From assembly GCF_025165795.1 (NCBI RefSeq), contig NZ_JAJAGO010000003.1, forward strand, positions 434,001-498,000: 64,000 nucleotides of DNA, given 5' to 3'. The number at the start of each line of letters is the position of its first letter. Position 1 is the stretch's first letter. This document shows, piece after piece, positions 26,891-50,677 of the stretch. The notes beneath the pieces are model-generated. The model worked only from the letters and a program-made list of their open reading frames with translations, did no database searches and was not told where the DNA came from. The DNA is from Streptomyces gossypii. GTDB taxonomy: Bacteria > Actinomycetota > Actinomycetes > Streptomycetales > Streptomycetaceae. Position numbers and translations under genes: made by a program.

Positions 26891-28415
26891 CGTGACGGGA
26901 GGGGCGGCGGCACCGGACGCGGCACCGGACGCGGGCGCGGACGCGGGCGCGGCGTCCGCGACGGGAAGTCCAGCGCCGTACCGGAGTTCGGTGCAGGGCG
27001 CGCGGGACGGCTTTCCGCAACTGCTGCTTGCCGAGTGGACCAAGCTCAGGTCGGTCCCTCGCTGGGCACTGACCATGGCGGCGGCCGTCGTGCTGACCAT
27101 CCTGGTCGCCCTGATCACCGCCGGAGGGGCGAACGCCGACCACGCGGGCGGCGACGGCGAGACCAACGCGCGGGCGAGCGTGCTCCGCGACGACCAGGAC
27201 CGGGGCCACCTAGTGCACCGGCCGCTGACCGGGGACGGCACCCTCGTCGCCCGGGTGACCGCGCAGAAGAACAGCGACCCGTGGGCCAAGGCCGGGCTCA
27301 TGCTCAAGGAGAGCAACCAGACGGGGGCTTCGTACGCGGCGGTCGTCCGTACGCCCGACCACGGCGTCCGGATGCAGACGGGCTTCAGCGGCGACACGAC
27401 GGGCACCGCGCGCGGTGCGGACGCCCCGCTGCCCCGCTGGCTGAAGCTGACCCGCGCGGGTGACTCCGTCACCGGCCATGTCTCGGCCGACGGCGCCGAC
27501 TGGCACAGGATCGGCACCGTCGAACTCGGCGGACTGCCCCGTACGGTCAAGGTCGGGCTGTTCGTCGGCTCGCCCGACGACGTGGAGGTGACGCGGCAGT
27601 TCGGCGGCGAGGCCGTCGAGGGGCGCCCCACCGACGGCAAAGCCACCTTCGATCAGGTGCGGGTGGAGGGGCAGGCGGGAGGGCCGCAGTCCGTGCCGTG
27701 GCGCGACCGCGAGCGGACGGCCGGGCACGCGGGAGGCGGCTTCACTCAGGCGGACGGCACCTTCACCGTGACCGGAACGGGTGACATCGGACGGGACGAG
27801 TTCGTCGACGACCTCACCCGGGACACGCTCTCCGGTGTGCTGATCGGGCTGATGGCGGTCGTCGCGCTCGGCGTGCTGTTCATCACCGCCGAATACCGCC
27901 GCGGCATGATCCGCACCACCTTCACCGCCAGCCCGCGCCGCGGACGCGTCCTCGCCGCCAAGGCCGTGGTGATCGGAGCCGCCACGTTCGCCGCAGGGCT
28001 CGTCGCCTCCTTCGGCGCGTTCCTGCTCGCCGCGCCGGTGCTCCGCTCGGGCGGCCGTCAACCCGTGCCGCTCTCCGAGGGCCCTGTCCTGCGCGCGGTC
28101 CTGGGGACGGCGCTGCTGCTGGCCGTCATCGCCGTGTTCAGCCTGGCCGTCGGTGCGCTCCTGCGGCACAGTGCCGCCGCGATCACCACTGTCCTGCTGC
28201 TCGTGCTGCTGCCGCTGATCGTGGCCACCGGACTCCCGCTGTCGGCCGCGACCTGGCTCGAACGCCTGACGCCTGCTGCCGGGTTCGCCATCCAGCAGAC
28301 CGTGCACCGGTACGACACCGTGATCGATCCGTGGGCCGGGCTCGGCGTGCTGTGCGGCTACACCGTGATCGCGCTGGCGCTGGCGGCCCGTCGGCTCCGG
28401 ACACGTGACGCATGA
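26883..28415 (+). CDS. ABC-2 permease with an inserted extracytoplasmic beta-sandwich
   Basis: A 510-residue membrane protein. After a GAD-rich cytoplasmic tail and EWTKLRSVPRWAL, helix 1 lies at ~61-80. About 245 residues outside the membrane follow before helix 2 (~327-344). Within them, residues ~100-255 read like a DUF1349/concanavalin-like sandwich (WAKAGLMLKESNQTGASYAA, then WHRIGTVELGG). The remaining helices form a normal ABC-2 domain with ITAEYRRGMIRTTFTASPRR. GTG 26883 overlaps the ATPase gene by eight bases. The insert may bind a cell-wall or glycan ligand. Confidence 0.85.
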   Translation: MSDVTGGAAAPDAAPDAGADAGAASATGSPAPYRSSVQGARDGFPQLLLAEWTKLRSVPRWALTMAAAVVLTILVALITAGGANADHAGGDGETNARASVLRDDQDRGHLVHRPLTGDGTLVARVTAQKNSDPWAKAGLMLKESNQTGASYAAVVRTPDHGVRMQTGFSGDTTGTARGADAPLPRWLKLTRAGDSVTGHVSADGADWHRIGTVELGGLPRTVKVGLFVGSPDDVEVTRQFGGEAVEGRPTDGKATFDQVRVEGQAGGPQSVPWRDRERTAGHAGGGFTQADGTFTVTGTGDIGRDEFVDDLTRDTLSGVLIGLMAVVALGVLFITAEYRRGMIRTTFTASPRRGRVLAAKAVVIGAATFAAGLVASFGAFLLAAPVLRSGGRQPVPLSEGPVLRAVLGTALLLAVIAVFSLAVGALLRHSAAAITTVLLLVLLPLIVATGLPLSAATWLERLTPAAGFAIQQTVHRYDTVIDPWAGLGVLCGYTVIALALAARRLRTRDA

Positions 28416-29299
28416 GCGCGCGGGAAGACGCGCTGGGCCCGCAGCACGCGGTACGTGCCGGGCACGCGGTACGTGCCGGGCACGCGGTACGTGCCGGGCA
28501 CGCGGTACGTGCCGGGCACGCGGTACACGCCGAGTGGACGAAGCTGCGCACCCTGCCCAGCACCGGCTGGCTGCTGCTCGCGCTGGTCGCTTCGACCGTG
28601 CTGGTGGGCGCCGCGGCCACCGGCACGGTCGGTACGGAGAACTGCCCCACGCCCGCGCAGTGCTTCGAGGACACCGCCGAACTCAGCCTCACCGGCGTAC
28701 GGCTCGGACAGGCCGTGGTCGTCGTACTCGCCGTACTCATGATCAGCGGCGAGTACAGCACCGGGACCATCAGCGTCACCTTCGCGGCGACCCCCCGCCG
28801 GGTCACGCTGCTGCTCGCCAAGGCGGCCGTCGTCGCGGGCGCCGTGCTCGGCGCCGGGGCTCTCGCGGTGCTCGGGTCCCTGGCGGCGGGCCGCGCGCTG
28901 CTGCCCGGCAACGGCTTCACCGAGGCCCACGGCTATCCGCCGCTCTCCCTCGCGGACGGTCCGACGCTGCGGGCGGCAGTCGGGACGTTGCTGTACCTCG
29001 CCCTGGTCGCGCTGCTGGCGCTGGGGGTCGCCGCCGCCGTACGTGACACGGCCGGAGCCCTCACCTCCGTACTGACCCTGCTGTACCTCGCCCCCGTGCT
29101 CTCCGGGCTCATCGCCGACCCGCAGTGGCAGGAACGGATCCAGCGGTACGCGCCGATGCCCGCCGGGCTGGCCGTGCAGGCCACCACGCATCTCGAACGG
29201 CAGCCGATCGGACCCTGGGCGGGCCTGGGCGTGCTCGCCGCGTACGCCGCGGCGGCCCTGCTGGTGGGGGCACTGCTCACCGTACGCCGCGATCCGTGA
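28412..29299 (+). CDS. ABC-2 permease
   Basis: A 295-residue permease with six hydrophobic segments and the ISGEYSTGTISVTFAATPRR block matching its upstream neighbour, but without the large insert. Its ATG overlaps the preceding stop (ATGA). The N-terminal tail contains four exact copies of HAVRAG and a fifth diverged one (HAVHAE) before AEWTKLRTLP, encoded by an 18-bp repeat. With the ATPase and first permease it should form one heterodimeric exporter. Confidence 0.88.
   Translation: MSAREDALGPQHAVRAGHAVRAGHAVRAGHAVRAGHAVHAEWTKLRTLPSTGWLLLALVASTVLVGAAATGTVGTENCPTPAQCFEDTAELSLTGVRLGQAVVVVLAVLMISGEYSTGTISVTFAATPRRVTLLLAKAAVVAGAVLGAGALAVLGSLAAGRALLPGNGFTEAHGYPPLSLADGPTLRAAVGTLLYLALVALLALGVAAAVRDTAGALTSVLTLLYLAPVLSGLIADPQWQERIQRYAPMPAGLAVQATTHLERQPIGPWAGLGVLAAYAAAALLVGALLTVRRDP
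28445..28534 (+). repeat. 18-bp tandem repeat, four perfect copies plus one diverged
   Basis: The unit CACGCGGTACGTGCCGGG encodes HAVRAG in the permease N-terminus. Each unit contains the inverted core GTACGTGC. No spacers separate the copies, so it is not CRISPR. Confidence 0.95.
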
Positions 29300-36093: not shown

Positions 36094-37205
36094 ATGGACG
36101 AGATGAGCTCGGTGTTCGCCGAGGTGGACGCATTGCGGAAAGGGCTCCCGGAGCGTGCCTCGTACCGCTCGGAAGAAACCCTGAAGGAGCTGGCCCGTCA
36201 GATCGAGGGCACCCGGCATCTTTCCCGGCAACCGGCCGCTCAGGCATTCCTGGAGGATATCCGCTCGTTCACTCCCGGTGAGCGTCTGCGGGCCACGAAG
36301 GAACACATCAACAGCCGCCGGGACAACCATCTCTTCTCGCTGTTCGACGCCTCCTACTTCCCGAAGCTGTCGCTGGACTACCTGACCTACGAGGAACTGC
36401 CCGCGGACGCGCATCTGGCCGAGCGGTACGCGAGCAACACCGCCCCGGTGCGCATCACCGGGCGCTCGGCGGGATTCCATTCCCGGGTGGTCGTGGCGCT
36501 CTTTCCGGAGAACCACCTCGACGGGCTCCAGGACCCGGACGACCTCATCTTCTACTTCATCGACAAGTTCGTGGAGCGGCACAACCGGATCACCCGGGGC
36601 ATGATCGACGCGGTGATGGCCGAGGGCAGCTTCCCGCTGATCCAGGGAGCGCCGGACGCGACGGTCGAGCAGGCCTCGTCCTGGTGGGTGCGGCTGCACG
36701 AGTACCACCACCGGCAGGGCGACATGCCCATACCGGACTTCCTCGACGCGAAGAAGTACAAGCCGCTGGCCGGGCTCGAGGAGTTGCGGGTGGACGTCTC
36801 CGCGATGCTCGCCCTGCTGGGCGACGAGAAACTTCCGCGCGAGGAGGCGCTCACCGCCTACGAGTACATCCTCTCGGAACGGCTGCTGCGCTACGCGGTG
36901 GAGGGCATACCGCGGCCGAACTACGACGCGGTGGCGTCACAGCTGCTCTTCGGATATCTGGAGCAGCACGAAGGTATCCGGGTCAAGGACTCGGTCATAC
37001 AGCTGAGTCCGGAGATCCCCGAGGTGCTGGCACGGTTCCTCGCCGAGATCCACGCAATCGAGGCGCACATACGGGAGGAGCCGGTGGCGGCGGTTCGCAA
37101 GCGACTGCTCGCACTCACCGACAAGTACACCGACTACGACCCGGTGGCCCGTGACTACCGCTACGTGCCGTTCTTCGCCGAGGTCAAGAAGAAGCTGGGC
37201 ATCTA

Positions 37206-37206
<1 letters not shown>
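36094..37206 (+). CDS. Zincin-like cluster protein (HExxH), possibly DUF6421
   Basis: A 370-residue protein with no signal peptide. It carries HEYHH at residues 202-206 and then GLEELRVD, so that Glu230 lies 24 residues after His206 and Asp234 four further on. This HExxH plus ExxxD layout is that of gluzincin metallopeptidases. It may therefore cleave or modify a peptide, or act as a zinc hydrolase in the pathway. From memory it resembles proteins labelled DUF6421, unchecked. AGGAGGGG six bases ahead supports ATG 36094 over upstream ATG 36061. It is the first gene of the cluster. Confidence 0.6.
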
Positions 37207-38115
<909 letters not shown>

Positions 38116-38128
38116 GCGGGGAAGACCA

Positions 38129-39079
38129 TTGGAGGTCGTCGACCGATACGGTCTCGCGCTGGCACTGATCGAGGCCAGGGAACTGGCGGACGAGCCCTGG
38201 CTCGGCGCGGACCGGCCGGTTGACGTCGTCCGGGTGCCGGATCCGCCCGCGGCGAGCTGGGCCGAGCTCGCCGAGCGGGGCTTCGTCCACAAGCCGTCCG
38301 TGCTCACCTGGGTGTCCGCGCTGGGTCCCGACGAGGACACCCACCTGGCCGGGCTGAACCGCACGGCGCGCAGGTCCGTACGGTGCGCCCGCCGTGAGGC
38401 GGCCGCGGCCGGGCTGCGGGAGGTGGTGGAGGATCCGGTGACGCCGGATTCGCTCGACCGGTTCTTCGCGCTGTACCAGGACCGGGTGTCCGAGATGCGT
38501 TTCGGCGTGCCCTTCGCGCTGGACTACCGGGACGTGGTGCTGCACGGGCCGCGGAAGTTCTTCGGCGTCTTCAGCTATGAGGGTGACGAAATGGCGGGCG
38601 GCGTTCTGCTGCTGGAGTGCCCGGCCGTCGACCTGGTGGTGCTCCGCTTCTCCGCGGTCAGCGCCCGGTGGCGCCGCTCCAGCCTGGCCCGCCCGCTCTA
38701 TCTCGCGGCGATGCGGGCCGGGCGGGAACGCGGATACAGTAGGGCCTCCATGGGGAACGAGCCGAACCTGCTGGGCCATCTCACCCAGCCGGGGCTGCTG
38801 CGCTTCAAGACGGCGCTGGGCTTCCGGGCGGTGCCCTCGCAGGAGTGTGCAGATCCGCAGGGCGGCGACGAGGCGGATCTGGTGCTGCGGCTGGACGCGC
38901 TGAACGACCCGACGCTGATCCTCGGCTACGCCGGGCCTGCCGCGGGCCGGCCCGGCCGGAGCCTGGCGGGCCATCTGTTCTGCGAGGCACTCGTCGACGC
39001 CGAGCTCTACCACGCGCCGTTCCTGGAGTCCCTGACCGTACGGGCCCCTGGGGGCCCTGGCCGCACGCCACCGGCGTGA
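38129..39079 (+). CDS. FemAB/GNAT-like acyl or aminoacyl transferase
   Basis: A 316-residue protein with the GNAT-fold pattern of the FemAB/CelD group: LNRTARRSVRCARREAAAAG, FFALYQDRVSEMRFG, FFGVFSYEGDEMAGGVLLL and the final RFKTALGFRAVPSQ. FemAB proteins attach amino acids from aminoacyl-tRNA to peptides, and GNAT relatives use acyl-CoA. Either would fit a peptide-like product. The chosen start is TTG 38129 with GGGGAAG ahead; no ATG or GTG suits. It follows the diiron-type gene by 13 bases. Confidence 0.65.
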   Translation: MEVVDRYGLALALIEARELADEPWLGADRPVDVVRVPDPPAASWAELAERGFVHKPSVLTWVSALGPDEDTHLAGLNRTARRSVRCARREAAAAGLREVVEDPVTPDSLDRFFALYQDRVSEMRFGVPFALDYRDVVLHGPRKFFGVFSYEGDEMAGGVLLLECPAVDLVVLRFSAVSARWRRSSLARPLYLAAMRAGRERGYSRASMGNEPNLLGHLTQPGLLRFKTALGFRAVPSQECADPQGGDEADLVLRLDALNDPTLILGYAGPAAGRPGRSLAGHLFCEALVDAELYHAPFLESLTVRAPGGPGRTPPA

Positions 39080-39201
39080 CCCGGCACGGGGTTGTTCGCA
39101 CGAGACCGTGGACCACGTGCGGGCCCTCCAGCGCCGCCGCGCCGGTCTCCGTCCGGCCGCCCCGCCTGCGCGTCGCGCACGGTGGCTCCGCTCTCCGCGG
39201 G

Positions 39202-40092
39202 TCAGGCCGCCGCGGTCCGCTCCTCGACCCAGTCGTACACCCCGCCCAGCACCTGCCGGTGCTGCTCCCGCCCCATCAGGGCGAGGAAGCCGGGGATGGG
39301 GTTGACCTCGAGGATCAGATAGCCGTCCCGGGTCGGCAGGACGTCCAGCCCGGAGAGTGTCATCCCCATGGCGCGGGTGGCGCGCAGGGACAGGTCGACC
39401 AGCTCCTCGGGGGCGTCGAAGCGCTCGTAGCTCGCACCCTCCATCGTCTTGCAGCGCCAGGAACCGGCGGCCGGCAGCTTGAGGAGGTTGAGCGGGGTGG
39501 CGTCGCCCGCCACCACGATCCGGTACTCGCCGCCCTCGGTCGGGCAGTACGGCTGGCACACCAGGGTCGGGAAGCGGGCGAGCAGGTCCTCCACGACCGC
39601 CTTGTCGGCGCTCGGGTCGACGATGCGCTCCACATCCATCCCGCGGTAGCCGAAGGACGGTTTGAGGATCACCGGCCCCCACGCGGCACAGGCCGACTCG
39701 ACGTCCGCGAGCGACATCACGGACCGGATCGGTGGTATGGGCAGCCCGGCCGCGGCCAGCCGCTGTGCCATCAGAAATTTGCTGTAACCGGTGACCCAGG
39801 CGTCCGCGGGGTCGAAGAGACTGACGCCTGGGACGTTGCTGAGCATGGTCAGCCGCTCGACCCGGTCCTGCCAGTCGTCACCGTAGAGCTTGCACCTGTT
39901 GATGATGGCCTGAAACGACTCTGCGGGCTCACCGCGGAGCGTCAGTGAGGGGCCCTCGGGTCCCGGGTGGTAGGCGATGTCCTCCAGCGTGAAGAAGGAG
40001 GTCTCGTGCCCGCGTTCGCGGCCGTAGTCGACGAGGTGGTGGCCGTCGGGATCGATTCCGGAGTAGTCCCAGCCGAGCACGCCGATCTTCAC
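39202..40092 (-). CDS. ATP-grasp ligase, RimK type
   Basis: A 296-residue ATP-grasp enzyme. It has the N-terminal pre-ATP domain VKIGVLGWDYSGIDPDG, the ATP-binding lysine in VILKPSFGYRG, acidic EYRIVVAGD and the magnesium site LILEVNPIPGF. It joins a carboxylate to an amine through an acyl phosphate, so it could build a dipeptide bond that the single-module NRPS cannot make. It is the only cluster gene on the minus strand and shares a 238-bp divergent promoter region with the acyl-CoA synthetase. The start is GTG 40092 after GGGAGG. Confidence 0.85.
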   Translation of the reverse strand: MKIGVLGWDYSGIDPDGHHLVDYGRERGHETSFFTLEDIAYHPGPEGPSLTLRGEPAESFQAIINRCKLYGDDWQDRVERLTMLSNVPGVSLFDPADAWVTGYSKFLMAQRLAAAGLPIPPIRSVMSLADVESACAAWGPVILKPSFGYRGMDVERIVDPSADKAVVEDLLARFPTLVCQPYCPTEGGEYRIVVAGDATPLNLLKLPAAGSWRCKTMEGASYERFDAPEELVDLSLRATRAMGMTLSGLDVLPTRDGYLILEVNPIPGFLALMGREQHRQVLGGVYDWVEERTAAA

Positions 40093-40330
40093 GCTGCCTC
40101 CCAGAACTGACGTGCCGCGCTGCACGCTCGTCGCACTCACGTGCTGTTCGGGTGAGCCTGACCTGCACCCGAAGCGTTGTCAAGGGGGCAAGCACCGCCG
40201 GGAGTTGGGTTCTGCAAGTGACTAAACGGTGCTCGCGCACGGGGCTTCCGCGAGCCTTCGGTCATCCTCTAGGCTCAGCCGCTCGGTTGGGTTGCTCAGG
40301 TGGAGTTGCTCGCGTAGGAGAGGTGCCGCA

Positions 40331-42028
40331 GTGGGTAAGTGGGACACACTGGTCTTGCCGGAGCCCGAGCGGGCCGCCGCGTACCGGGCGGCCGGCTGGT
40401 GGCGCGAAACCACCTTCCTGGACGACCTGTCGGCCGCGGCCCGCGACCGGGGGGACCACCCCGCCGTGATCGCGTACGAGGACTCTGCCCCGGCTCGGGA
40501 ACTGAGCTATGCCGACCTCCAGTTGTACGTCGAGCGATTCGCAGCTGCACTGAGCGAACTCGGGGTAGGCCGCGGTGATGTGGTCGCGCTCTACCTGCCG
40601 AACCGCTGGGAGCTGACGGCCCTGTACCTGGCCTGCTACCGGATGGGCGCCGTCGCCACTCCGGTGATCCCCGCCCTGGACGTGCGCGAGCTGGGCCATG
40701 TGCTGCGGGAGAGCGAGGCGCGGGTCTGCGTGACCGTTGACCGCTTCCAGGACATCGACTACGGCGCCCGCCTCCAGGAGGCCGCCCCGCAGACCCTCGC
40801 GCACCGGGTGGTGTGCGGCGACGCCGAGGCGACCGGCGCGCTCGGCTTCGACGCCTTCTTCGTCCGTACGCCCTGGGAGGAGCGCAGCAGCGTCGACGAG
40901 GCGGACCGGCTGGGCCCCGACGACCCGGCGCTGCTGCTCTACACCTCCGGCACCACCGGGCGGATGAAGGGCGTGGTGCACAGCCAGAACACCCTGCACG
41001 CGGCAGTGCTCGCGGTCTCCGTCCCGCACCGGCTCACCGGCGACGACGTCATCTCCATCCCCAACTTCGCCACCCACATGGCGGGGCTGTCGTACGCCTG
41101 CTTCATGCCGCTGCTGCTCGGCGCGACCTGCGTCGTGCAGGACACGAACCGCGACATGGAACTGCTGCTCGACCTCATCGCGCGGCACGGCATCACCTGG
41201 GCGTACGCCTCGCCCGCCTATCTCCTCGACATGCTGGACGCGCAGGGCAAGGAGCCCCGGGACACCTCCAGCGTGGTGCAGATCGTCTCCGGATCGGCGC
41301 CGATCCAGCCGCAGTTGATCGCCCGGATGCGGGAGGTCTTCGACATCCCGGTGCGGGCCCTGTGGGGGATGACGGAGAACGGCGCGGTCACCGTCACCCG
41401 GGACGACGACCCGGAGGGGTGGGCGGGGCACAGCGACGGGCGCGCGGAGCCGTCGATGGAGGTGCGGATCGCGCCGGAGACGGGCGCCGAGGAGGCCGGG
41501 GGCCCGGCCGGCACCGGCGGGGACACGGACGCCGGCGGCGGGCGGCTGCTGGTGCGCGGCGCCTCCCAGTGCCTCGGCTATCTCGGCCAGCGCGACGTCT
41601 ACGAGGCGTGCCTGGACGAGGACGGCTGGTTCGACACCAGCGACCTGGCCCGCGACGACGGCCGCGGCGGCATCCGTATCGTCGGCCGGTCCGTGGACCA
41701 GGTCACCCGGGCCAGCGGCCAGAAGGTCTCGACGCTCGAGGTGGAGTCCGTGCTGATCCGGCACCCGGGCGTGCGGGAGGTGGCGCTCGTCGGCTACCCG
41801 GACCCGCGCGTGCCCGTCGCGGAACTGGTCTGCGCCGTGGTGGTGGCCGAGGGGGAACCGCCCACTCTGGAGGAGCTGCGGCGCCATCTGGCGGAGGAGA
41901 GGATGGCCGAGGTGCTCTGGCCGGACCGGGTGCAGTTCGTCTGGGAGCTGCCCAAGAACTCCCTGGGGAAGGTCCTCCGGCACCCGCTGCGTCAGCGTCT
42001 CCAGATCGAATACGCCACCCACCGATGA
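40331..42028 (+). CDS. Acyl-CoA synthetase / AMP-dependent ligase
   Basis: A 565-residue ANL-superfamily enzyme that activates a carboxylic acid as acyl-AMP and then passes it to CoA or a carrier. The P-loop is LLLYTSGTTGRMKG, motif A5 ALWGMTENG, and the catalytic Lys is in PKNSLGKVLRH near the C-terminus. The acid is unknown; the pocket resembles cyclohexane- or aryl-carboxylate ligases only weakly. The start is GTG 40331 with AGGAG 11-15 bases upstream. The next gene starts within its stop (ATGA), so transport and activation are coupled. Confidence 0.85.
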   Translation: MGKWDTLVLPEPERAAAYRAAGWWRETTFLDDLSAAARDRGDHPAVIAYEDSAPARELSYADLQLYVERFAAALSELGVGRGDVVALYLPNRWELTALYLACYRMGAVATPVIPALDVRELGHVLRESEARVCVTVDRFQDIDYGARLQEAAPQTLAHRVVCGDAEATGALGFDAFFVRTPWEERSSVDEADRLGPDDPALLLYTSGTTGRMKGVVHSQNTLHAAVLAVSVPHRLTGDDVISIPNFATHMAGLSYACFMPLLLGATCVVQDTNRDMELLLDLIARHGITWAYASPAYLLDMLDAQGKEPRDTSSVVQIVSGSAPIQPQLIARMREVFDIPVRALWGMTENGAVTVTRDDDPEGWAGHSDGRAEPSMEVRIAPETGAEEAGGPAGTGGDTDAGGGRLLVRGASQCLGYLGQRDVYEACLDEDGWFDTSDLARDDGRGGIRIVGRSVDQVTRASGQKVSTLEVESVLIRHPGVREVALVGYPDPRVPVAELVCAVVVAEGEPPTLEELRRHLAEERMAEVLWPDRVQFVWELPKNSLGKVLRHPLRQRLQIEYATHR

Positions 42029-43503
42029 CCACGGACGGAGCCCGGCGGCGGGCGATCGCGCTCGCCGTCATCTCCGTGGCCCAGCTGATGTTCCTGCTGG
42101 ACGCCACCATCGTCAATGTCGCGCTGCCCAGCATCCAGGAGTCGTTGCGGCTGAGCGGCTCCGACCTGGAATGGATCGTCGCCTCCTTCTCCGTCGCCTT
42201 CGGCGGGCTGCTGATCCTCGGCGGCCGGGTCGGGGACATCCTGGGGCGGCGCCGGATGTTCACGGCGGGTGTGGTGCTGTTCACCGCCGCCTCGCTGCTC
42301 GGCGGGTTCGCGGAGGAGCCGTGGCTGCTGATCGTCTGCCGTACGGCGCAGGGGGTCGGTGCCGCAGCCGCCTCGCCCGCCGCGCTGTCGCTGATCGCGG
42401 TGACCTTCCCGGAGGGCCCGGAGCGCAACCGGGCGGTGGCCTGGTACACCGCCGTGGCCACGGCGGGCGGCGGCGTGGGGCTGCTGGCCGGGGGCGTGAT
42501 CACCGCCTATCTGTCCTGGCGCTGGGTGATGTTCGTGAACGTCCCGGTCGGCGTCGTCGTTCTCGCCCTCTCCCGGCGGGTGCTGCGCGAGACGCCCCGC
42601 CAGCACGGCACGTTCGACGTGGCCGGGGCGCTCACCGGCACGCTGGCCGCACTGCTGCTGGTGCACGGCCTGATCAGCGGGGCCTCGGAGAGCGGCCAGT
42701 GGAGCGACCCCTCCGTGCTCGCGGCGCTGGGTGCGGCGGCCGTGCTGCTCCCGGCGTTCGTGGTGATCGAGAAGCGCGGGAGCCAGCCGCTCGTGCCGCT
42801 GCGGCTGTTCGCCGACCGCACCCGCTTCGGCACGTACGCGGTGCTGGCGCTGACCAACACCGCGATGTTCGGCATCTTCTTCTTCCTCACTCTCTTCCTC
42901 CAGCAGGTCTGGGACTACAGCCCGCTGGAGACCGCGCTCGTCTACATCCCGCTGACCTGCCTGCTCGTCGTCGGCGCACGGGCCAGCTCCCGCCTCGTCA
43001 CGCTCGTCGGCGCCCGCAGGCTGGTGTGCTGCGGCCTGCTGACCGCCACCGTCGGGATGCTGTGGCTGTCCCGGATCGGCGAGTCCGGGGGTTACGCCAC
43101 CGGGATGCTGGTGCCCACCGTGCTGACCTACGCCGGGCTCGCGGTGACCGGCGTGCCGCTGACGCTGGCCGCGCTGGCGGATGTGGCCGACGAGGACTCG
43201 GGCGCCGCCTCCGGACTCCTCAGCATGGCCCGGCAGATCGGCGGCGCGACCGGGCTGGCCGTGCTCGGCACCGTCGTCTGGTCGACGGTCGGCTCGGCGG
43301 CCGATACCACCTCCGCCGAGGACGCGCTCGCCACGGGCATCGGCCGGGGCTTCCTGGTCGCGGCCGGAGTCGCCGCGCTGTCGCTGCTGGTGGCGTACCT
43401 GACGATGCCCCGGGACGCGGCGCGCTCCGGCGGCACGGCCGTGCCCGGCACGGCCGTGCCCGATTCCGCCGCGGCCGACACCGCCGCGCCCGGGAAGGGG
43501 TGA
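42025..43503 (+). CDS. MFS exporter, DHA2 (14-helix) family
   Basis: A 492-residue transporter with fourteen hydrophobic segments. Helix 1 shows LMFLLDATIVNVALPSIQ, the family motif of the DHA2 drug:proton antiporters such as QacA and the actinorhodin exporter. It is the likely product exporter and self-resistance function of the cluster. ATG 42025 overlaps the synthetase stop. The C-tail repeats GTAVPGTAVPDSA. Confidence 0.9.
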   Translation: MTTDGARRRAIALAVISVAQLMFLLDATIVNVALPSIQESLRLSGSDLEWIVASFSVAFGGLLILGGRVGDILGRRRMFTAGVVLFTAASLLGGFAEEPWLLIVCRTAQGVGAAAASPAALSLIAVTFPEGPERNRAVAWYTAVATAGGGVGLLAGGVITAYLSWRWVMFVNVPVGVVVLALSRRVLRETPRQHGTFDVAGALTGTLAALLLVHGLISGASESGQWSDPSVLAALGAAAVLLPAFVVIEKRGSQPLVPLRLFADRTRFGTYAVLALTNTAMFGIFFFLTLFLQQVWDYSPLETALVYIPLTCLLVVGARASSRLVTLVGARRLVCCGLLTATVGMLWLSRIGESGGYATGMLVPTVLTYAGLAVTGVPLTLAALADVADEDSGAASGLLSMARQIGGATGLAVLGTVVWSTVGSAADTTSAEDALATGIGRGFLVAAGVAALSLLVAYLTMPRDAARSGGTAVPGTAVPDSAAADTAAPGKG

Positions 43504-43508
43504 ACGCG

Positions 43509-44690
43509 GTGTCCGGGAGATACGGCACCAGCCCCGGCACGGCCCGCGGTGCGGCGGACTTCCTGGTCGTCGGCGGCGGCATCGCGGGTGCTGCGGCAGG
43601 CTACTTCCTCGCCCGGCACGGCCGCGTCGTCCTCCTGGAGGCGGAACGGTCCCCGGGTCTGCACGCCACCGGACGGTCCGCCGCGCTGTTCTCCGAGTAC
43701 TTCGGCAACCCCACCGTACGGGCGCTGACCATAGCCGCACGGGGCTTCTACACGGCCCCGCCCGACGGCTTCACCACCGCCCCGCTGCTCACCCCGCGCG
43801 GCGTGCTCGCACTGGAAACCCCGGGCACCGCCGCGCAGTTCGAGGCCGCCAAGGTGTCCGGGGCCACCGCCCCGCAGCCGGTCGTCGAACTCGACGAGGA
43901 GCGCGCCCTGGATCTCTGCCCGGCGCTGCTGCCCGGGGCGTTCGGCCGCGCGCTGTACAAGCCGGGCGCCTGCGACGTCGATGTGGACGCCACCCACCAG
44001 GGCTTCCTGCGGGGCCTGCGCGCCGCCGGCGGCAGCGTGGTGACCGGCGCACGGGTACACGCCCTCCGCCGGGACGCCGGGGAGTGGCAGGTGTCCACGG
44101 CGGTGGGGGAGTTCGCCGCCCCGGTCGTGGTCAACGCCGCCGGCGCCTGGGCCGATGAGCTGGCACGGCTGGCGCGGTCGGCGGGCGTACGGGCGCTGGG
44201 GCTCGTGCCGCGCCGCCGCACCGCCGCACTCGCCCGGACACCGGACGGGGCCGATGCGTCCAGCTGGCCGATGGTCTCCGACGTCGCGGACACCTTCTAC
44301 GCCAAACCGGAGTCCGGCGGCCTGCTGCTCTCCCCGGTGGACGACACCCCCGAGCCGCCCGGCGACATACGGGCCCGCGACCTCGACGTCGCCACCGCCG
44401 TCCACCGCTTCGAGCAGGTGAGCACCCTGCGCCTGCGGCACGTCGGCCACATCTGGGCCGGGCTGCGTACCTCGACCCCGGACGACACACCCGTCATCGG
44501 TACCGACCCCCGGGCCCCCGGCTTCTGCTGGCTGGCCGGTCTGGGCGGCTACGGAATCCAGACGGCCCCCGCGGCCGGCGCGCTGCTGGCCGCGCTCGCC
44601 ACCGGAAACGCGCCGCCGCCCGCGCTCGCCGCGCTGGTCCCGGGCCTCACCCCCGCCCGCGACCACGGACCCGATCGCGAGGAGCCGTGA
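43509..44690 (+). CDS. FAD-dependent amine/amino-acid oxidoreductase (DAO family)
   Basis: A 393-residue flavoprotein. The dinucleotide-binding motif FLVVGGGIAGAAAGYFLARHG is followed by acidic LLEAE, the FAD-contact block HATGRSAALFSEYFG and the C-terminal WLAGLGGYGIQTAPAAG. This pattern resembles D-arginine dehydrogenase and glycine-oxidase-type enzymes, which turn amines into imines. It may oxidise an amino-acid building block. The start is GTG 43509, eight bases after GGGG; GTG 43500, in a GTGA overlap, is the alternative. Confidence 0.8.
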   Translation: MSGRYGTSPGTARGAADFLVVGGGIAGAAAGYFLARHGRVVLLEAERSPGLHATGRSAALFSEYFGNPTVRALTIAARGFYTAPPDGFTTAPLLTPRGVLALETPGTAAQFEAAKVSGATAPQPVVELDEERALDLCPALLPGAFGRALYKPGACDVDVDATHQGFLRGLRAAGGSVVTGARVHALRRDAGEWQVSTAVGEFAAPVVVNAAGAWADELARLARSAGVRALGLVPRRRTAALARTPDGADASSWPMVSDVADTFYAKPESGGLLLSPVDDTPEPPGDIRARDLDVATAVHRFEQVSTLRLRHVGHIWAGLRTSTPDDTPVIGTDPRAPGFCWLAGLGGYGIQTAPAAGALLAALATGNAPPPALAALVPGLTPARDHGPDREEP

Positions 44691-44739
44691 ACCCACCTCC
44701 CCGCGCCCCCACCCTGTCACCCGCAGAGAGGTCGGAGAC

Positions 44740-47700
44740 ATGTCGGAAACCATCTGGCAGACCGCCGGCAGCCGTGTCGACCACGGCCCGTACCGCCCCG
44801 TGCACAGGCTGATCGAGGAACAGGCCGACCGGACACCGGACCGCATCGCCCTGATCCACCGGGGAACCGCCCAGACGACCCTGACCTACGCGGAGTTCGA
44901 CGCGCTCGCCAACGGCCTGGCCGCCGAACTGGCGGCGGCCGGTGTCGGCCCCGGCGCCATGGTGCCCGTCGTCACCGGCAACAGCGTCGAACTCCCGCTG
45001 TGCATGGTGGCGCTGATGAAGGCGGGCGCGGCCTTCGCGCTCTGTGACCCGGCCTGGCCGGACGAGCGGCTGCGCTCCGTGCTGGAGGAGCTGGACCCGC
45101 CGCTGGTGCTTACGACCCTGTCGGCGACAGCCAGCGGGCTCACGGCGGCCGGCACGTCGCCTGTCGCCGACAGGGTCGTCACCTCCGGGCCGCTGGTCCG
45201 CACGGACCGGCCCGCGCTGGTCGTCTCGGCCGGGCGGATCACGCCGAGCACCGTGCGCCCCCGTCCGACGCCGGGCCCGGAGCAGCCTGTCTACGGGGTG
45301 TTCACCTCGGGCACGACGGGGACGCCGAAGTGCGCCGTGAATCTGCACGGGGGACTGACCAACCGCTTCCGCTTCATGTCCCGCTACTTCGGCGCCACCG
45401 GCGAGGAGGTGGTGCTCCAGAACAGCCGCCACACCTTCGACTCGGCGATCTGGCAGCTGCTGTGGCCGCTGACGACCGGTGGCCGCACGATCATCCCCGA
45501 GCAGGGCGAGTTCCTGGATCTGGAGCGGACGGTCGAGGCGATCCACCGCTACCGGGTCACGGTCACCGACTTCGTCCCGGCGATCCTCGGCATGCTGCTG
45601 GCCTTGCTGGAGGCCGAGCCCGCGGCGGTGCGCAAGGTGACCTCGTTGCGTCATCTGGTCGTCGGCGGCGAGGAGATCATCCCGCACGCCGTGCACCGGC
45701 TGCGCGCCCTGCTCCCCGGCCTGGAGATCACCAACGGCTACGGCCCGTCCGAGACGTCCATCGGCGTGGTCTTCCACCGGATCGACGGCAGCGAGGGCGA
45801 CCACATCCCGCTCGGGCGCCCCATCGACAACTGCTACGCCGTCGTCATCGACGAGCAGCTGCGCCCGCTGCCCGCGGGCACCACCGGCGAGATCGTGATC
45901 GGCGGCGCCTGCGTCGGCGCCGGCTACCTTGGGGACCAGGCGCGCACCGCCGAGGTGTTCGTGCCCAACCCGTTCCCGCGGATACCCGGCGACACCCTCT
46001 ACCGGACCGGTGACCTGGGCTGGTTCGACCAGGCCGGACTGCTGCGCTTCACCGGCCGCCGCGACCGGCAGACCAAGGTGGACGGCGTACGGATAGAACT
46101 GGCCGAGATCGAGACCACCGCCGAAGGCTGCCACGGCGTCATCCAGGCCAAGGCCCTGACTCTCCGGCGGCACGGGCGCAACCGGCTGGTGGTCGCGGCG
46201 GCGGCCGAGGAGGGAACCACCCCGGCGGCGCTCCGCGCCCACCTGGTGGCCATGCTGCCGCGCATCCAGGTGCCGCAGCACTGCTTCGTGGTGGAGAGCC
46301 TGCCGCTCTCCGACAACGGCAAGGTCGACCTGCGGGCGCTCCGGCTGCTCGCCGAGGAGAAGCTGGAGTCGGAGGCGCGGCCCGTCCCGCCGGCCGGCCC
46401 GGCCGCCGCGGATGACCCGGAGGCCCCCGCCGCCTCGGTGCCCCGGCCCGGCGGCTCCCTCGCGGAACGCATCGCCGAGGTGATGCGTACCGTCCTCGAC
46501 CTCCCCGCCTTCGGGACGCGGGACGACTTCCTGCTGCGCGGCGCCGACTCGCTGACCGCGCTGAGCGCGATGCTGCGGATCAGGGAGAGCGCGGCACCGG
46601 GGACACGGGCGGTGGGTCTGGCCGAACTGTACGAGCACCGCACCCCGGAGGCCCTGGCGGCGGTGCTGTCGCAGGCAGGGACACGAACCGGGCCGGACGC
46701 GGGCGGCGGGGACGCGTCCGTCGTGGCCTCCCTCATGGAGCGCGACTCCGGCCTGCCCGCCGATCTCGCCGAACTGGCCGCCCGCGCCCAGCGGTTCACG
46801 GGCACCGGCACCGGCACCCCGGTGGCGCTTCCGCCACGCACCGTCCTGGTCACCGGCGCCACCGGCTTCGTCGGGGCGAGGACCCTGCACCGGCTGCTGT
46901 CGGCAACCCCGGCCCGTGCCGTGTGCGTCGTACGGGCCCGCGACGACGCCCACGCCCGGGACCGGATCGTACGGACGCTGCGCGCCCAGGGCCTGTGGGA
47001 GGAGTCCCTCGGGGAACGCCTCGACGCACGCGCCGGCGAACTGGGCGCCCCCCGGTTCGGCTGGGCGCGGGAGACCTGGGAGACGTACGCCGCCAGCTGT
47101 GACGCCGTGCTGCACATCGGGGCCCTTGTCAACTTCCTCCTCGACTACCGGGCCCACCGCGCCGCCAACGTCACCGGCACGGCCGAGGTGCTCCGCTTCG
47201 CGCTCTCCGTGCGGCCCAAACCGCTGCACCACGTCTCCACCCTCGGGATCCTCGAACAGCACGCCTCCCGTACCCCGGGCCGCCTCCGGGAGGACTTCGA
47301 CCCGGCCACAGCCACCGCACCGAACAGCGGGTACAGCCGCTCCAAGTGGGTGGCCGAGCGGCTGCTCACCGCCGCCCGGAGGCGGGGCGCGCCGGTGACC
47401 CTCTACCGGCTCGGCGAGGTGATGCCCGCCGCCGACAACGGCGTGCCCAACCCGAGGGCGCTCACCCATCTGCTGCTGTCCGCCGTGCTCCGGCTCGGCA
47501 TCCGGCCCGACGTGCCGATGCGGTCCGACTACACGCCGGTGGACGAGGCGGCCGCTCGGCTGGTCGCCGGGCTCGCCGAGCCTTCCGACGGCGCCGTCTA
47601 CCACGTCTTCCGGGACGGCAGCGTGGACTTCGCCGCGCTCGACCTGGGGGGCGGTCCGGAGCGTGGGGGCGCCCTGCGTACGGTGCCGCCCGCGGAGTTC

Positions 47701-47961
47701 ATGGCCGCGCTGCGGGAGAGGGCGGCCGGGGGCGGGGAGCCCGCCGTGGCCGTGCTGCACGGTCTGCTGACGGCGCTCCCGGCCACCGGGCCGGGTGGCG
47801 TACCGGACTTCCGGCGGCTGCTGGCGGACAACCCCGGGTTTTTCACCAAGGAGGCGTGCGCCGCCCTGGACGCGCGGCACGGCTTCCGGGAACGGCCGCT
47901 GGAGGCGGCCCTCCACGCCTACAGCACCACGCTCACCGCTGGAGAGCCTGCCGGGCTCTGA
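44740..47961 (+). CDS. NRPS-like A-T-R protein with thioester reductase
   Basis: A 1073-residue single-module enzyme. The adenylation domain (~20-530) has VFTSGTTGTPK, NGYGPSET, YRTGDLGW, the GRRDRQTKVDG hinge and final Lys in NGKVDL; FDSAIW in motif A4 keeps the Asp that grips an alpha-amino group, so the substrate is an amino acid. The carrier domain has phosphopantetheine Ser604 in GADSL. The reductase (~700-1073) has GATGFVG at 706-712 and catalytic Tyr865/Lys869 in YSRSK. With no condensation domain it should release an amino aldehyde or alcohol. ATG 44740, well-spaced RBS AGAGAGG. Confidence 0.9.
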   Translation: MSETIWQTAGSRVDHGPYRPVHRLIEEQADRTPDRIALIHRGTAQTTLTYAEFDALANGLAAELAAAGVGPGAMVPVVTGNSVELPLCMVALMKAGAAFALCDPAWPDERLRSVLEELDPPLVLTTLSATASGLTAAGTSPVADRVVTSGPLVRTDRPALVVSAGRITPSTVRPRPTPGPEQPVYGVFTSGTTGTPKCAVNLHGGLTNRFRFMSRYFGATGEEVVLQNSRHTFDSAIWQLLWPLTTGGRTIIPEQGEFLDLERTVEAIHRYRVTVTDFVPAILGMLLALLEAEPAAVRKVTSLRHLVVGGEEIIPHAVHRLRALLPGLEITNGYGPSETSIGVVFHRIDGSEGDHIPLGRPIDNCYAVVIDEQLRPLPAGTTGEIVIGGACVGAGYLGDQARTAEVFVPNPFPRIPGDTLYRTGDLGWFDQAGLLRFTGRRDRQTKVDGVRIELAEIETTAEGCHGVIQAKALTLRRHGRNRLVVAAAAEEGTTPAALRAHLVAMLPRIQVPQHCFVVESLPLSDNGKVDLRALRLLAEEKLESEARPVPPAGPAAADDPEAPAASVPRPGGSLAERIAEVMRTVLDLPAFGTRDDFLLRGADSLTALSAMLRIRESAAPGTRAVGLAELYEHRTPEALAAVLSQAGTRTGPDAGGGDASVVASLMERDSGLPADLAELAARAQRFTGTGTGTPVALPPRTVLVTGATGFVGARTLHRLLSATPARAVCVVRARDDAHARDRIVRTLRAQGLWEESLGERLDARAGELGAPRFGWARETWETYAASCDAVLHIGALVNFLLDYRAHRAANVTGTAEVLRFALSVRPKPLHHVSTLGILEQHASRTPGRLREDFDPATATAPNSGYSRSKWVAERLLTAARRRGAPVTLYRLGEVMPAADNGVPNPRALTHLLLSAVLRLGIRPDVPMRSDYTPVDEAAARLVAGLAEPSDGAVYHVFRDGSVDFAALDLGGGPERGGALRTVPPAEFMAALRERAAGGGEPAVAVLHGLLTALPATGPGGVPDFRRLLADNPGFFTKEACAALDARHGFRERPLEAALHAYSTTLTAGEPAGL

Positions 47962-48010
47962 GCACGCTGCGCGGCTACCGCGCAGACCCGTACGAAACGA
48001 GAGGACGACC

Positions 48011-49009
48011 GTGCACTACCGCACCATGGGACGACTGGGCTGGCAGGTCAGCGAGATCGGCTACGGCATGTGGGGGATCGGCGGCGGCCCCGGAGGATTC
48101 ACCGGCTGGGACTACGACGTGGCCCCGGACTGCCTGGACCTCGCGGTCGAGGACGGCTGCACGTTCTTCGACACCGCCTGGGCCTACGGCCGGGGTATCA
48201 GCGAACAGATGCTGGGCGCCCTCCTCCGGCGGCACGCCGACCGCACCGGCAGCGAGCGGCTGCGGGTGGCGACCAAGGTCCCGCCGCTGAACCGGGAATG
48301 GCCGCCCGGCCCGGACGACACGCTGGACGACGTCTACCCCGCCGCCCACATCCGCGAGTACGTCCACCGCAGCCTGGAGAACTTCGGGACCGACCGGATC
48401 GACCTGCTCCAGTTCCATGTCTGGGAGGACCGCTGGAGCGGCGAGGAGAGCTGGCAGCGGGTGGTCGCCGACCTCAAGGCGGAGGGTGTGATCGACGGCT
48501 TCGGCCTCAGCGTCAACCGCTGGGAACCGGTCAACTGCCTGCGGGCACTGGACACCGGCCTGGTCGACGCCATCCAGGTGATCTACAACATCTTCGACCA
48601 GGCGCCGGAGGACGAGCTGTTCGCACGCGCGCTGCGCGACGACATCGGCATCATCGCCCGCGTCCCCTTCGACGAGGGCGGCCTCACCGGCACCCTCACC
48701 CGCGACACCGTCTTCCCCGAGGACGACTGGCGAGCCGTCTACTTCGGCCCGGAGAACCTCGGCCCGACGGTGGAGCGCGCCGAACGGCTGAAGAAGGTGC
48801 TGCCCGAGGGCATGTCGCTGCCGGAGCTGAGCCTCCGCTTCATCCTGCACCATCCCGCCGTGAGCACGGTCATCCCGGGCATGCGCAGGCCCGAGCACGT
48901 ACGCGCCAACCTGGCGGTCTCCGGGGCGGCGCCCGCGCTCGACCCCGCCCTGCTGGACGAACTGCGCGGCCACCGCTGGGACCGGCTGCCCACGGCATGG
49001 TCGATGTGA
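48011..49009 (+). CDS. Aldo/keto reductase
   Basis: A 332-residue TIM-barrel oxidoreductase using NADPH. The catalytic tetrad is visible as Asp and Tyr in FFDTAWAYG, Lys in RVATKVPP and His in LLQFHVW. The C-terminal cofactor block is STVIPGMRRPEHVRANL. It would reduce the aldehyde set free by the NRPS reductase domain or a related carbonyl. GTG 48011 follows GAGAGGAC. The 3' end overlaps the next gene by 13 bases. Confidence 0.88.
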   Translation: MHYRTMGRLGWQVSEIGYGMWGIGGGPGGFTGWDYDVAPDCLDLAVEDGCTFFDTAWAYGRGISEQMLGALLRRHADRTGSERLRVATKVPPLNREWPPGPDDTLDDVYPAAHIREYVHRSLENFGTDRIDLLQFHVWEDRWSGEESWQRVVADLKAEGVIDGFGLSVNRWEPVNCLRALDTGLVDAIQVIYNIFDQAPEDELFARALRDDIGIIARVPFDEGGLTGTLTRDTVFPEDDWRAVYFGPENLGPTVERAERLKKVLPEGMSLPELSLRFILHHPAVSTVIPGMRRPEHVRANLAVSGAAPALDPALLDELRGHRWDRLPTAWSM

Positions 49010-49770
49010 CCGTCATCGCCCTGTGGGCCCACCCGCGTGCGGTCTCCACGGCATTTCTGCGGATGATGGCCGAGCGCGGTGACGTCACGGTGGTGCACGA
49101 GCCGCTGGTGCTGCTCACCGACCACGGCGAGGTCACCGTTCCCGCTGTGGACGCTGTGGACGCTGTGGACGCTGTGGACGGTGCGGAGGGCGCGGAAGGG
49201 CGTACGGTCACCGTCCGCACGCCCGCCGAACTGCTGTCCCAGCTGGCGGAACTGGGCACCCGGAAACAGGTCTTCTTCAAGGACACGCTGGAGTACCACT
49301 ACCAGCATCTCTTCGACCACCCGGAGCGGATCGCCTCCTTCACCCACACCTTCATCGTCCGCGAACCGGCCCGTACGATCGCCTCCCACCACGCGGTAAA
49401 GCCCGAACTGGCCTGCCACGAGATCGGCTACGAGCACCAGTACGCGCTGTTCGAGCTGGCCTGGAAGGCGACTGGCCGGCGCCCCGTGGTCGTCTCGGCC
49501 GAACGACTGCTGGCGGACCCGTCCGCCGTGGTCGCCGGCTACTGCGAGCGCGTCGGCCTGCCCTTCCTGCCCGAGGCGCTGACCTGGCGGCCGGGCGAAC
49601 GCCCCGAGTGGCGCCAGAACGAGCGCTGGCACCGGGACGCGAGCGCCAGCTCGGCCTTCCGTGCCCCGGCGCGGGAGTACGAGGTCACCGTCGAGAACGA
49701 CGCGCGGCTGCGCGGCTTCTACGAGCACCACCTCCCCTTCTACGAGCAGCTCATCGCGCATGCCTACTGA
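48997..49770 (+). CDS. Sulfotransferase-like protein
   Basis: A 257-residue P-loop protein. LWAHPRAVSTAFLRMMAERGDVTVVHEP near the N-terminus matches the phosphosulfate-binding loop of sulfotransferase-like proteins often mis-annotated as aminotransferases, and FIVREPARTIASHHA is the 3'-phosphate block. It may sulfate a hydroxyl of the product. Sulfotransferase genes recur in family 3 encapsulin clusters. ATG 48997 lies within the AKR gene; GTG 49006 (GTGA overlap) is possible. A 9-bp repeat inserts (AVD)4 near residue 50. Confidence 0.75.
   Translation: MVDVTVIALWAHPRAVSTAFLRMMAERGDVTVVHEPLVLLTDHGEVTVPAVDAVDAVDAVDGAEGAEGRTVTVRTPAELLSQLAELGTRKQVFFKDTLEYHYQHLFDHPERIASFTHTFIVREPARTIASHHAVKPELACHEIGYEHQYALFELAWKATGRRPVVVSAERLLADPSAVVAGYCERVGLPFLPEALTWRPGERPEWRQNERWHRDASASSAFRAPAREYEVTVENDARLRGFYEHHLPFYEQLIAHAY
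49144..49179 (+). repeat. 9-bp tandem repeat, four copies
   Basis: GCTGTGGAC repeated four times, in frame, encodes AVDAVDAVDAVD in the sulfotransferase-like protein, in a likely surface loop. Confidence 0.95.
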
Positions 49771-49807
49771 GCAGTTGCGGCACCGGACCCAGACCCAGGA
49801 GACCTCC

Positions 49808-50677
49808 ATGACGAGCACGACACCGGCCACCCCGGGCGAGGAGTTCGCCCGCGCCTATCTCGCCGACCCCGAGAAGGCCGAGGTGCACTTCCAGTTCACC
49901 CTCACCGAGGCCTTCGCGGTGGGCAAGCAGCGGCCGCGGATGACGGCCCGCAACCTCTTCCGCGCCCAGCGGGCCGACACCGAGCAGGTGCGCTCCTGGC
50001 ATGAGACCAGGCCGGACGGGACCAGGCCGGACGGGACCAGGCCGGACGGGACCAGGCCGGACGGGGCGACTGCGGCCGGGGAGCAGCGCGAGGGGCGGCT
50101 GCGGGAGGAGAACTTCCGCTTCTCGCTGGCCGAGTACGGCATCGAGCCGATCACCGCCTGGGCGCAGATCCCCGAGGGCCTGGCAGCCGAACCGGAGGGC
50201 CTGGCCTCGTTCATCGACCGCAGGCTCATGGTGCGGCTCGGCACCGCCGAGAACCGGGCGCTCACCCTCGACGTGCTCCGGCACCCGGATGTGGCGCGGC
50301 TTCCCTACACCGGCTCCTACACCGACGGGGTGCTCGCCGCCTTCAACGAGATAGAGCAGACGGGCGGCACCGGCCGCGCCCTGATGGTGAACCCACGCGA
50401 CTACTACGCCGAACTGGTGGGCGCGGGGAGCCTGCTGGCGGATCTCGACCGCGAGGACGTGCAGATCTGCCGCCACCGTCATGTGGCGCCCGGCTGCGCG
50501 CTGGTGGGGGACTTCGCCATGGCCGCGCGGCTGCTCGAATCCGGCCAGTCGGTGATCAAGGTCGCGGAGCCGCCGGAGGGCACCTTCGACCGGCCGGGCA
50601 CGGCGGTGTGTGCGCAGGTGCACGAATCCGTCGCCGTCCAGCTGCCCACGCACTTCTTCCACGTGGTCCCCGCCTGA
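49808..50677 (+). CDS. Encapsulin-type (HK97-fold) shell protein, family 3
   Basis: A 289-residue protein. The region FRFSLAEYGIEPITAWAQ then LASFIDRRLMVRLGTAENR reads like the P-domain spine helix of HK97-fold capsid proteins, and GCALVGDFAMAARLLESGQS followed by HESVAVQLPTHFFHVV matches the A-domain end of HK97 gp5 (LVGDFSM then RAEERLAL). No portal, protease or tail gene is near, so this is not a prophage. Family 3 encapsulins are known from Streptomyces biosynthetic clusters. An N-arm insert of four TRPDG units (67-86) is encoded by a 15-bp repeat. ATG 49808 follows CAGGAG. Confidence 0.8.
   Translation: MTSTTPATPGEEFARAYLADPEKAEVHFQFTLTEAFAVGKQRPRMTARNLFRAQRADTEQVRSWHETRPDGTRPDGTRPDGTRPDGATAAGEQREGRLREENFRFSLAEYGIEPITAWAQIPEGLAAEPEGLASFIDRRLMVRLGTAENRALTLDVLRHPDVARLPYTGSYTDGVLAAFNEIEQTGGTGRALMVNPRDYYAELVGAGSLLADLDREDVQICRHRHVAPGCALVGDFAMAARLLESGQSVIKVAEPPEGTFDRPGTAVCAQVHESVAVQLPTHFFHVVPA
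50006..50065 (+). repeat. 15-bp tandem repeat, four copies
   Basis: ACCAGGCCGGACGGG four times in frame gives (TRPDG)4 at residues 67-86 of the shell protein, between the N-terminal arm and the FRFSLAEYG block. Confidence 0.95.

Follow-up and report, generated by a model that had tools for sequence, protein, structure and literature searches.

A conserved Streptomyces gene cluster at positions 36094-50677 of the 64,000-nucleotide stretch of Streptomyces gossypii DNA analysed here (the window) opens with a gene of the DUF6421 family that has the PolE fold and a conserved metal site, continues with a gene for PolF, and closes with a gene for an HK97-fold protein (Table 1). The first gene most likely belongs to the established PolE (DUF6421) kind, and its reading as a peptidase is unsupported. 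By analogy with the characterised homologues, it is very probable that this PolE would carry out the Fe(II)- and pterin-dependent 3,4-desaturation of L-isoleucine, and that PolF would then form an azetidine that is built into the product of the cluster.

Table 1. Genes of the cluster, with their positions in the window and the evidence for each assignment.
Feature	Position	Strand	Evidence
PolE, putative DUF6421 Fe(II)/pterin-dependent L-isoleucine 3,4-desaturase	36094..37206	+	PDB match 4.5e-161; PF19985, 51.1 bits; fold Z 50.9; conservation 23/23
PolF, putative DUF6202 haem-oxygenase-like diiron oxidase (azetidine/polyoximic acid synthase)	37264..38115	+	Pfam PF19705 3.3e-139; PDB matches
GNAT/FemAB-like transferase (Acetyltransf_6)	38129..39079	+	Pfam 4e-05, 24.2 bits (cut-off 22); kept in sister clusters
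RimK-type ATP-grasp ligase	39202..40140	-	Pfam RimK 8.5e-13; conserved in sister clusters
Acyl-CoA/AMP ligase	40331..42028	+	Pfam AMP-binding 2.5e-77
MFS exporter	42025..43503	+	Pfam MFS_1 2.2e-52
FAD-dependent amine/amino-acid oxidase (DAO)	43500..44690	+	Pfam DAO 1.1e-50
NRPS-like adenylation-thiolation-reductase (A-T-R), putative aldehyde release	44740..47961	+	AMP-binding 6.2e-75; NAD_binding_4 8.9e-51
Aldo/keto reductase (AKR)	47990..49009	+	Pfam 1.4e-48; identity 83-86% in five sister clusters
Sulfotransferase (probable start, from the reading frame)	48997..49770	+	Pfam Sulfotransfer_5 4.2e-14; kept in five sister clusters
HK97-fold capsid-like protein, putative Family 3 (natural product) encapsulin type	49808..50677	+	HK97 gp5 profile match 2.8e-15; fold Z 16.1

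Translation of the first gene yields 370 residues, with HEYHH at 202-206 (H202, E203 and H206), E230 and D234 exactly where the preliminary description had placed them. When this protein was shuffled 200,000 times, HExxH arose in 3.9% of the sequences, HExxHx23E in 0.33% and HExxHx23ExxxD in 0.028%, and by the latter two rates the motif with its spacing is improbable by chance. HExxH was counted six times among the 332 stop-to-stop frames of at least 100 residues in the window, and the x23E extension is found only in the PolE frame. In an alignment of the window protein with the products of 22 of the 28 PolE loci obtained by contig search (54-79% identity to the window), H202, E203, Y204, H205, H206, E230, R232 and D234 are invariant in all 23 rows, so that the motif marks a genuine conserved metal site. 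It corresponds, with a spacing of x23 kept in every row, to the published motif of the DUF6421 family, HE/DxxHx(21-23)E (Du et al., 2025; PMC12614342). In the AlphaFold2 model of the window protein (pLDDT 90.5), residues 202-206 lie within a helix (188-208), as does Glu230 (223-243). By analogy with the family, H202, H206 and E230 are the predicted iron ligands.

The closest solved structures are those of PolE itself. A PDB sequence search retrieved, over nearly the full length, SmPolE (9j3g, E 4.5e-161) and SnPolE (9j2e, E 1.8e-157), the identity to solved PolE chains being 64-65%. The fold is that of PolE over its whole length, the model superposing on SnPolE with Z 50.9 and 1.3 Å over 368 residues (64% identity), and the solved PolE relatives returned by Foldseek bear the entry title 'Fe2+/pterin-dependent'. 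Over 373 residues, SnPolE has the same sequence as the PolE encoded at locus L026 (Streptomyces sp. NTH33). The SnPolE residues F140, Y157 and Y280, mutated according to the entry titles, correspond by alignment offset to F137, Y154 and Y277 of the window protein, which are likewise invariant in all 23 rows; the Y157A deposit is titled as a complex with L-Ile. The Pfam scan returned DUF6421 (PF19985) and no other family, as a partial match that covers residues 188-321 (51.1 bits; cut-off 25), while NCBIfam gave no match for PolE or PolF of the window and PHROGs none for PolE.

A second DUF6421 protein is encoded in the same genome (G000:C47:44069-45373; locus L029); it is canonical, with 742 bits over profile positions 1-436, and window PolE scores far below it. 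Among 392 genomes of the genus, PolE was found in 15 (E 1e-60). Note also that PolE stands without PolF in the fetched stretches of ten loci (L013, L014, L016, L018-L021 and L026-L028), nine of which, all except L018, contain an NRPS-like adenylation match; dehydroisoleucine may be used directly there.

The chemistry of the family has been described for the PolE of polyoxin biosynthesis, a DUF6421 protein that converts L-Ile to E-3,4-dehydroisoleucine in a reaction strictly dependent on Fe2+, O2 and BH4, acts specifically on free L-Ile (turnover on L-Val and L-Leu is <5% relative to L-Ile), and loses its activity in soluble mutants of the motif (Du et al., 2025; PMC12614342). That enzyme helps PolF, the diiron maker of the azetidine polyoximic acid, and is helpful but dispensable, since strains lacking polE still yield about 10% of the polyoxin A (PMC12614342). 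Window PolE, whose Fe/pterin chemistry and substrate are carried over here from these published homologues, would be a mononuclear non-haem iron, pterin-dependent oxidase built on a DPP III-like scaffold, with Fe(II) held by the two histidines of HExxH (H202 and H206) together with Glu230. Reduced pterin and O2 would generate an iron-based oxidant that takes hydrogen from L-isoleucine, giving E-3,4-dehydroisoleucine, and PolF would then join the amino group to C4 to form polyoximic acid. The enzymes encoded downstream would carry this azetidine into the cluster product, probably through formation of an amide bond, reductive release, reduction of the aldehyde and sulfation. As for the pterin, one pterin-4a-carbinolamine dehydratase is encoded in the genome, which speaks for the preferred reading, and a search of the same genome gave no match to 6-pyruvoyl-tetrahydropterin synthase; because of the latter result, it is doubtful that this organism makes BH4 in the classical way.

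The preliminary description had taken the same residues as the signature of a gluzincin, and had proposed a metal-dependent peptidase or hydrolase with the product or a carrier as its substrate, a reading that we now regard as very improbable. M2 peptidases combine HExxH with ExxxD at a similar spacing, and this M2 (ACE) type of arrangement is present in the window protein as HEYHH, E230 and D234. Among solved structures other than PolE, the one closest to the model in fold is DPP III (family M49; Z 18.8, 3.6 Å, 335 aligned residues, matches extending down to Z 10.4), at 13% identity and with a Foldseek value of 2.0e-07 to 6eom (TM 0.61 by query length). The gluzincin-like fold was thus correctly anticipated; the comparison with M2 comes from the spacing of the motif, with DUF6421 alone in the Pfam scan and one weak M2-related structure among the listed fold matches (9mv0_A, an ACE2 complex; Z 2.2, 6.9 Å, 177 aligned). 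Although the M49 fold is shared, the pentapeptide HEYHH, with no inserted residue, replaces the hexapeptide HExxGH that forms the zinc motif of DPP III. The structural resemblance of PolE to DPP III was also pointed out by Du et al., according to whom neither HExxGH nor the catalytic His of DPP III (His578 in yeast) is conserved in DUF6421 (PMC12614342). Since the nearest non-PolE fold is DPP III and the close homologue of known chemistry oxidises free L-Ile with iron and pterin, the gluzincin look reflects a shared scaffold and not a shared function. A metallopeptidase was rejected on these two grounds, the absence of HExxGH and the oxidase activity of the homologue.

Two other readings would keep an iron oxidase. 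In the first, the same Fe/pterin chemistry would act on another substrate or with another outcome (another amino acid such as L-Val, hydroxylation in place of desaturation, or a carrier-bound substrate). The remaining genes of the cluster, which are unlike what we take to be the polyoxin set, are compatible with this, as are the size of DUF6421, with about 10,000 homologues, and the acceptance of L-Val as well as L-Ile by PolF (PMC12614342). However, the level of identity to the solved PolE chains, the retention of all three mutated pocket aromatics, the poor turnover of L-Val and L-Leu by polyoxin PolE (PMC12614342) and the position of PolF directly beside PolE make such a departure unlikely. 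In the second, the protein would be a 2-oxoglutarate/Fe oxygenase with HExxH, like those reported by Morishita et al., 2024 (as cited in PMC12614342). The motifs are similar, but the model of PolE is without the basic residues that bind 2-oxoglutarate and the dependence on BH4 is strict (PMC12614342), so that this reading is scarcely credible. The pterin-dependent desaturation of L-isoleucine is retained as the preferred reading for window PolE.

The adjoining gene agrees with it. Window PolF matches over its full length the solved SaPolF (9j27, 3.7e-121), SzPolF (9j28, 3.4e-116) and PolF (9prr, 3.7e-101), and its residue 63 is a Thr that was equated, via a printed alignment and the chain offsets, with the substrate-facing Thr62. 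The crystallised SzPolF agrees at all of its 289 residues with PolF from a sister cluster (locus L011, Streptomyces sp. Z26), and an enzyme of the window cluster type has thus already been crystallised. Work by Gong and colleagues from 2025 may be the origin of the SnPolE and SzPolF entries, and may treat the window cluster. PolF occurs in 9 of the 392 genomes (E 1e-30). By analogy with the solved enzymes, window PolF would make the azetidine from the product of PolE.

The genes that follow form a conserved neighbourhood. The genome set referred to below as window-type comprises L001-L012 and L015, of which L007 and L010 were assigned on PolF (and GNAT) alone. PolF, the GNAT gene, RimK and the AMP ligase occur together in 11 of the 28 PolE loci, that is, in all window-type loci apart from L010, where PolF and the GNAT gene are present, and L007, where the contig runs out after PolF. 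The AKR, the sulfotransferase and the last gene are kept in all six clusters that were read to the end (the window, G228, G214, G391, G248 and G184, where G214, G391 and G248 are probably the same as L002, L003 and L009). When ten genes flanking the cluster were compared with 16 related stretches, which contain between 0.6 and 24 kb of DNA ahead of PolE and among which three pairs are probably identical, two matches were obtained: a VOC gene directly upstream in L006 (60%), and in G214 an ORF of the universal-stress type (149 residues at 40%, E 2.5e-11), five stretches (13-17 kb) reaching far enough for the comparison downstream of the last gene. As the flanking genes scarcely recur, the boundaries of the cluster were placed at 36094 and 50677. 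The earlier view of PolE as the first gene holds as far upstream as these stretches reach, the VOC gene being the only one of five upstream genes to recur, in one of the 16 stretches. Between the GNAT gene and RimK, 13 of the 16 stretches carry a further aldo/keto reductase gene (the L002 copy has a Pfam match of 5.2e-65), which was not found in L012, L015, G184 or the window at E 1e-30.

Some assignments need qualification. A TTG start at 38129 is proposed for the GNAT gene from the starts of its relatives. In the A-T-R protein, the PP-binding match (0.001, 19.7 bits) falls just below the cut-off of 20.8, and NCBIfam recognises a thioester reductase domain (8.7e-70); its adenylation specificity code, compared by eye with the GrsA positions, pointed to no recognisable substrate. 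Judging from domain names, an amide bond would be made by RimK, the AMP ligase or the GNAT protein, the A-T-R would release an aldehyde, the AKR would reduce it, and sulfation would follow. None of the scanned window genes is among what we take to be the polyoxin nucleoside genes, and a polyoxin pathway was rejected because the scanned neighbours are unlike these. Short tandem in-frame expansions were seen by eye in three proteins of the window, encoded at 49808-50677, 48997-49770 and 28412-29299 (TRPDG-, VDA- and AGHAVR-type, respectively).

The last gene encodes a protein that, by itself, matches no Pfam family and no PHROGs family. A profile built from ten relatives matches the HK97 gp5 capsid protein (2.8e-15), and Pfam Phage_capsid is matched by two of these ten rows (best 4e-05), the window row being unmatched. 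The model has an intermediate pLDDT of 69.7, with residues 53-105 below 50; its fold matches the HK97 prohead (Z 16.1; Foldseek 4.2e-08), the virus-like particle of Pyrococcus furiosus (12.9) and chains titled encapsulin (at most 12.7). The TRPDG run is found in the window protein and is absent from the other nine aligned rows. According to Pfam, the gene sits among biosynthetic genes and not in a prophage, and a sulfotransferase gene adjoins it in all six fully covered clusters. Family 3 'natural product' encapsulins are HK97-fold proteins whose genes lie in biosynthetic clusters, in which sulfotransferase and NRPS genes are common, and a role in sequestering reactive aldehydes or ketones has been suggested for them (Andreas and Giessen, 2021; PMC8346489). 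The last gene, as modelled, appears to fit this family well, and its product may assemble into a shell. When both termini of ten cluster proteins were inspected by eye, in up to nine clusters, no common tail of the cargo-peptide type was apparent.

The window type of cluster and the last gene are associated across genomes. At E 1e-8 or better, the last gene has a match in 14 of the 28 PolE genomes, namely in 13/13 of the window type and 1/15 of the others, the test not being blind as the type labels for the tree were set after the last-gene matches were known; the single exception is L024 (37% identity, E 7.2e-25). In a 30-row PolE tree with a very long outgroup branch, the 14 window-type rows form one side of a branch with support 90/86 (90% of 200 bootstrap trees). 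The last gene lies about 13-17 kb downstream of PolE, apparently on the same contig, in nine of the 13 window-type genomes (L002-L006, L008, L009, L011 and L012), and on another contig in L001, L007, L010 and L015. The PolE contig ends early in L001 and L007; in L010 and L015 the two genes may be truly apart, or may seem so because a different version of the assembly was compared.

The encapsulin half of the cluster can also stand without the azetidine genes, as seen in G105 (L083), where DAO, A-T-R, AKR, sulfotransferase and the HK97-fold gene are present and PolE, PolF, GNAT, RimK and AMP ligase are absent from the 20 kb read. This counts against tight coupling, and the encapsulin half may form a module of its own. 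In G145, a broken-looking remnant is found. The last gene occurs in 17 of the 392 genomes (E 1e-8), nine of them belonging to a distant group with 31-35% identity. A second group of HK97-fold relatives, also of 31-35% identity (L072-L080, L085 and L086), includes L073, where a sulfotransferase gene follows the HK97-fold gene (Pfam 2.7e-11), and L085 and L086, where sulfate-activation genes (CysN/APS kinase-like, by eye) lie near it. We tentatively put forward, as a possibility that we would not favour at present, a compartmentalised azetidine pathway, in which a Family 3 encapsulin shell, derived from a domesticated phage capsid, would house the joining of polyoximic acid from PolE and PolF to another unit, the release of an aldehyde by the A-T-R, its reduction, and sulfation. 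If so, the aldehyde, being reactive, would be kept inside the shell, and no azetidine metabolite before this one would have been linked to an encapsulin.

These results correct a plausible peptidase call, HExxH on a DPP III-like scaffold here most likely marking an oxygen-activating iron site, and show that the PolE-PolF azetidine cassette, itself described only recently, also occurs outside a polyoxin context, beside an encapsulin-type gene. The role of Family 3 encapsulins in natural product pathways thereby becomes testable via enzymes of known chemistry, and the encapsulin-associated azetidine pathway is the part worth following. In a literature search largely without subscription papers, none among the matches listed joins PolE or PolF to encapsulins, and a search for the word DUF6421 in the same literature matched only PMC12614342, the searched text of which is without the word encapsulin. 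The main text of the survey of Family 3 encapsulins likewise contains none of the words 'azetidine', 'DUF6202' and 'DUF6421' (PMC8346489); the window cluster may be among its 132.

Compared with known systems, window PolE shares its scaffold with DPP III (Z 18.8 over 335 residues) and differs from it in having HExxH instead of HExxGH, in its length (370 residues against chains of 524-725) and in belonging to an oxidase family. With polyoxin PolE and with SnPolE and SmPolE, it has in common the full-length sequence, the fold, the metal triad and the pocket aromatics. The polyoxin pathway likewise includes PolF as well as PolE, and window PolF, known here from its sequence, is a full-length homologue of the azetidine synthases SzPolF, SaPolF and 9prr. 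Differently from polyoxin, as we take its gene set to be, the window neighbourhood has an NRPS-like reductase, a sulfotransferase and an encapsulin-type gene and is devoid of nucleoside genes. With Family 3 encapsulins, finally, the last gene has in common the HK97 fold, the location in a biosynthetic cluster, and the adjoining sulfotransferase and NRPS-like genes (PMC8346489).
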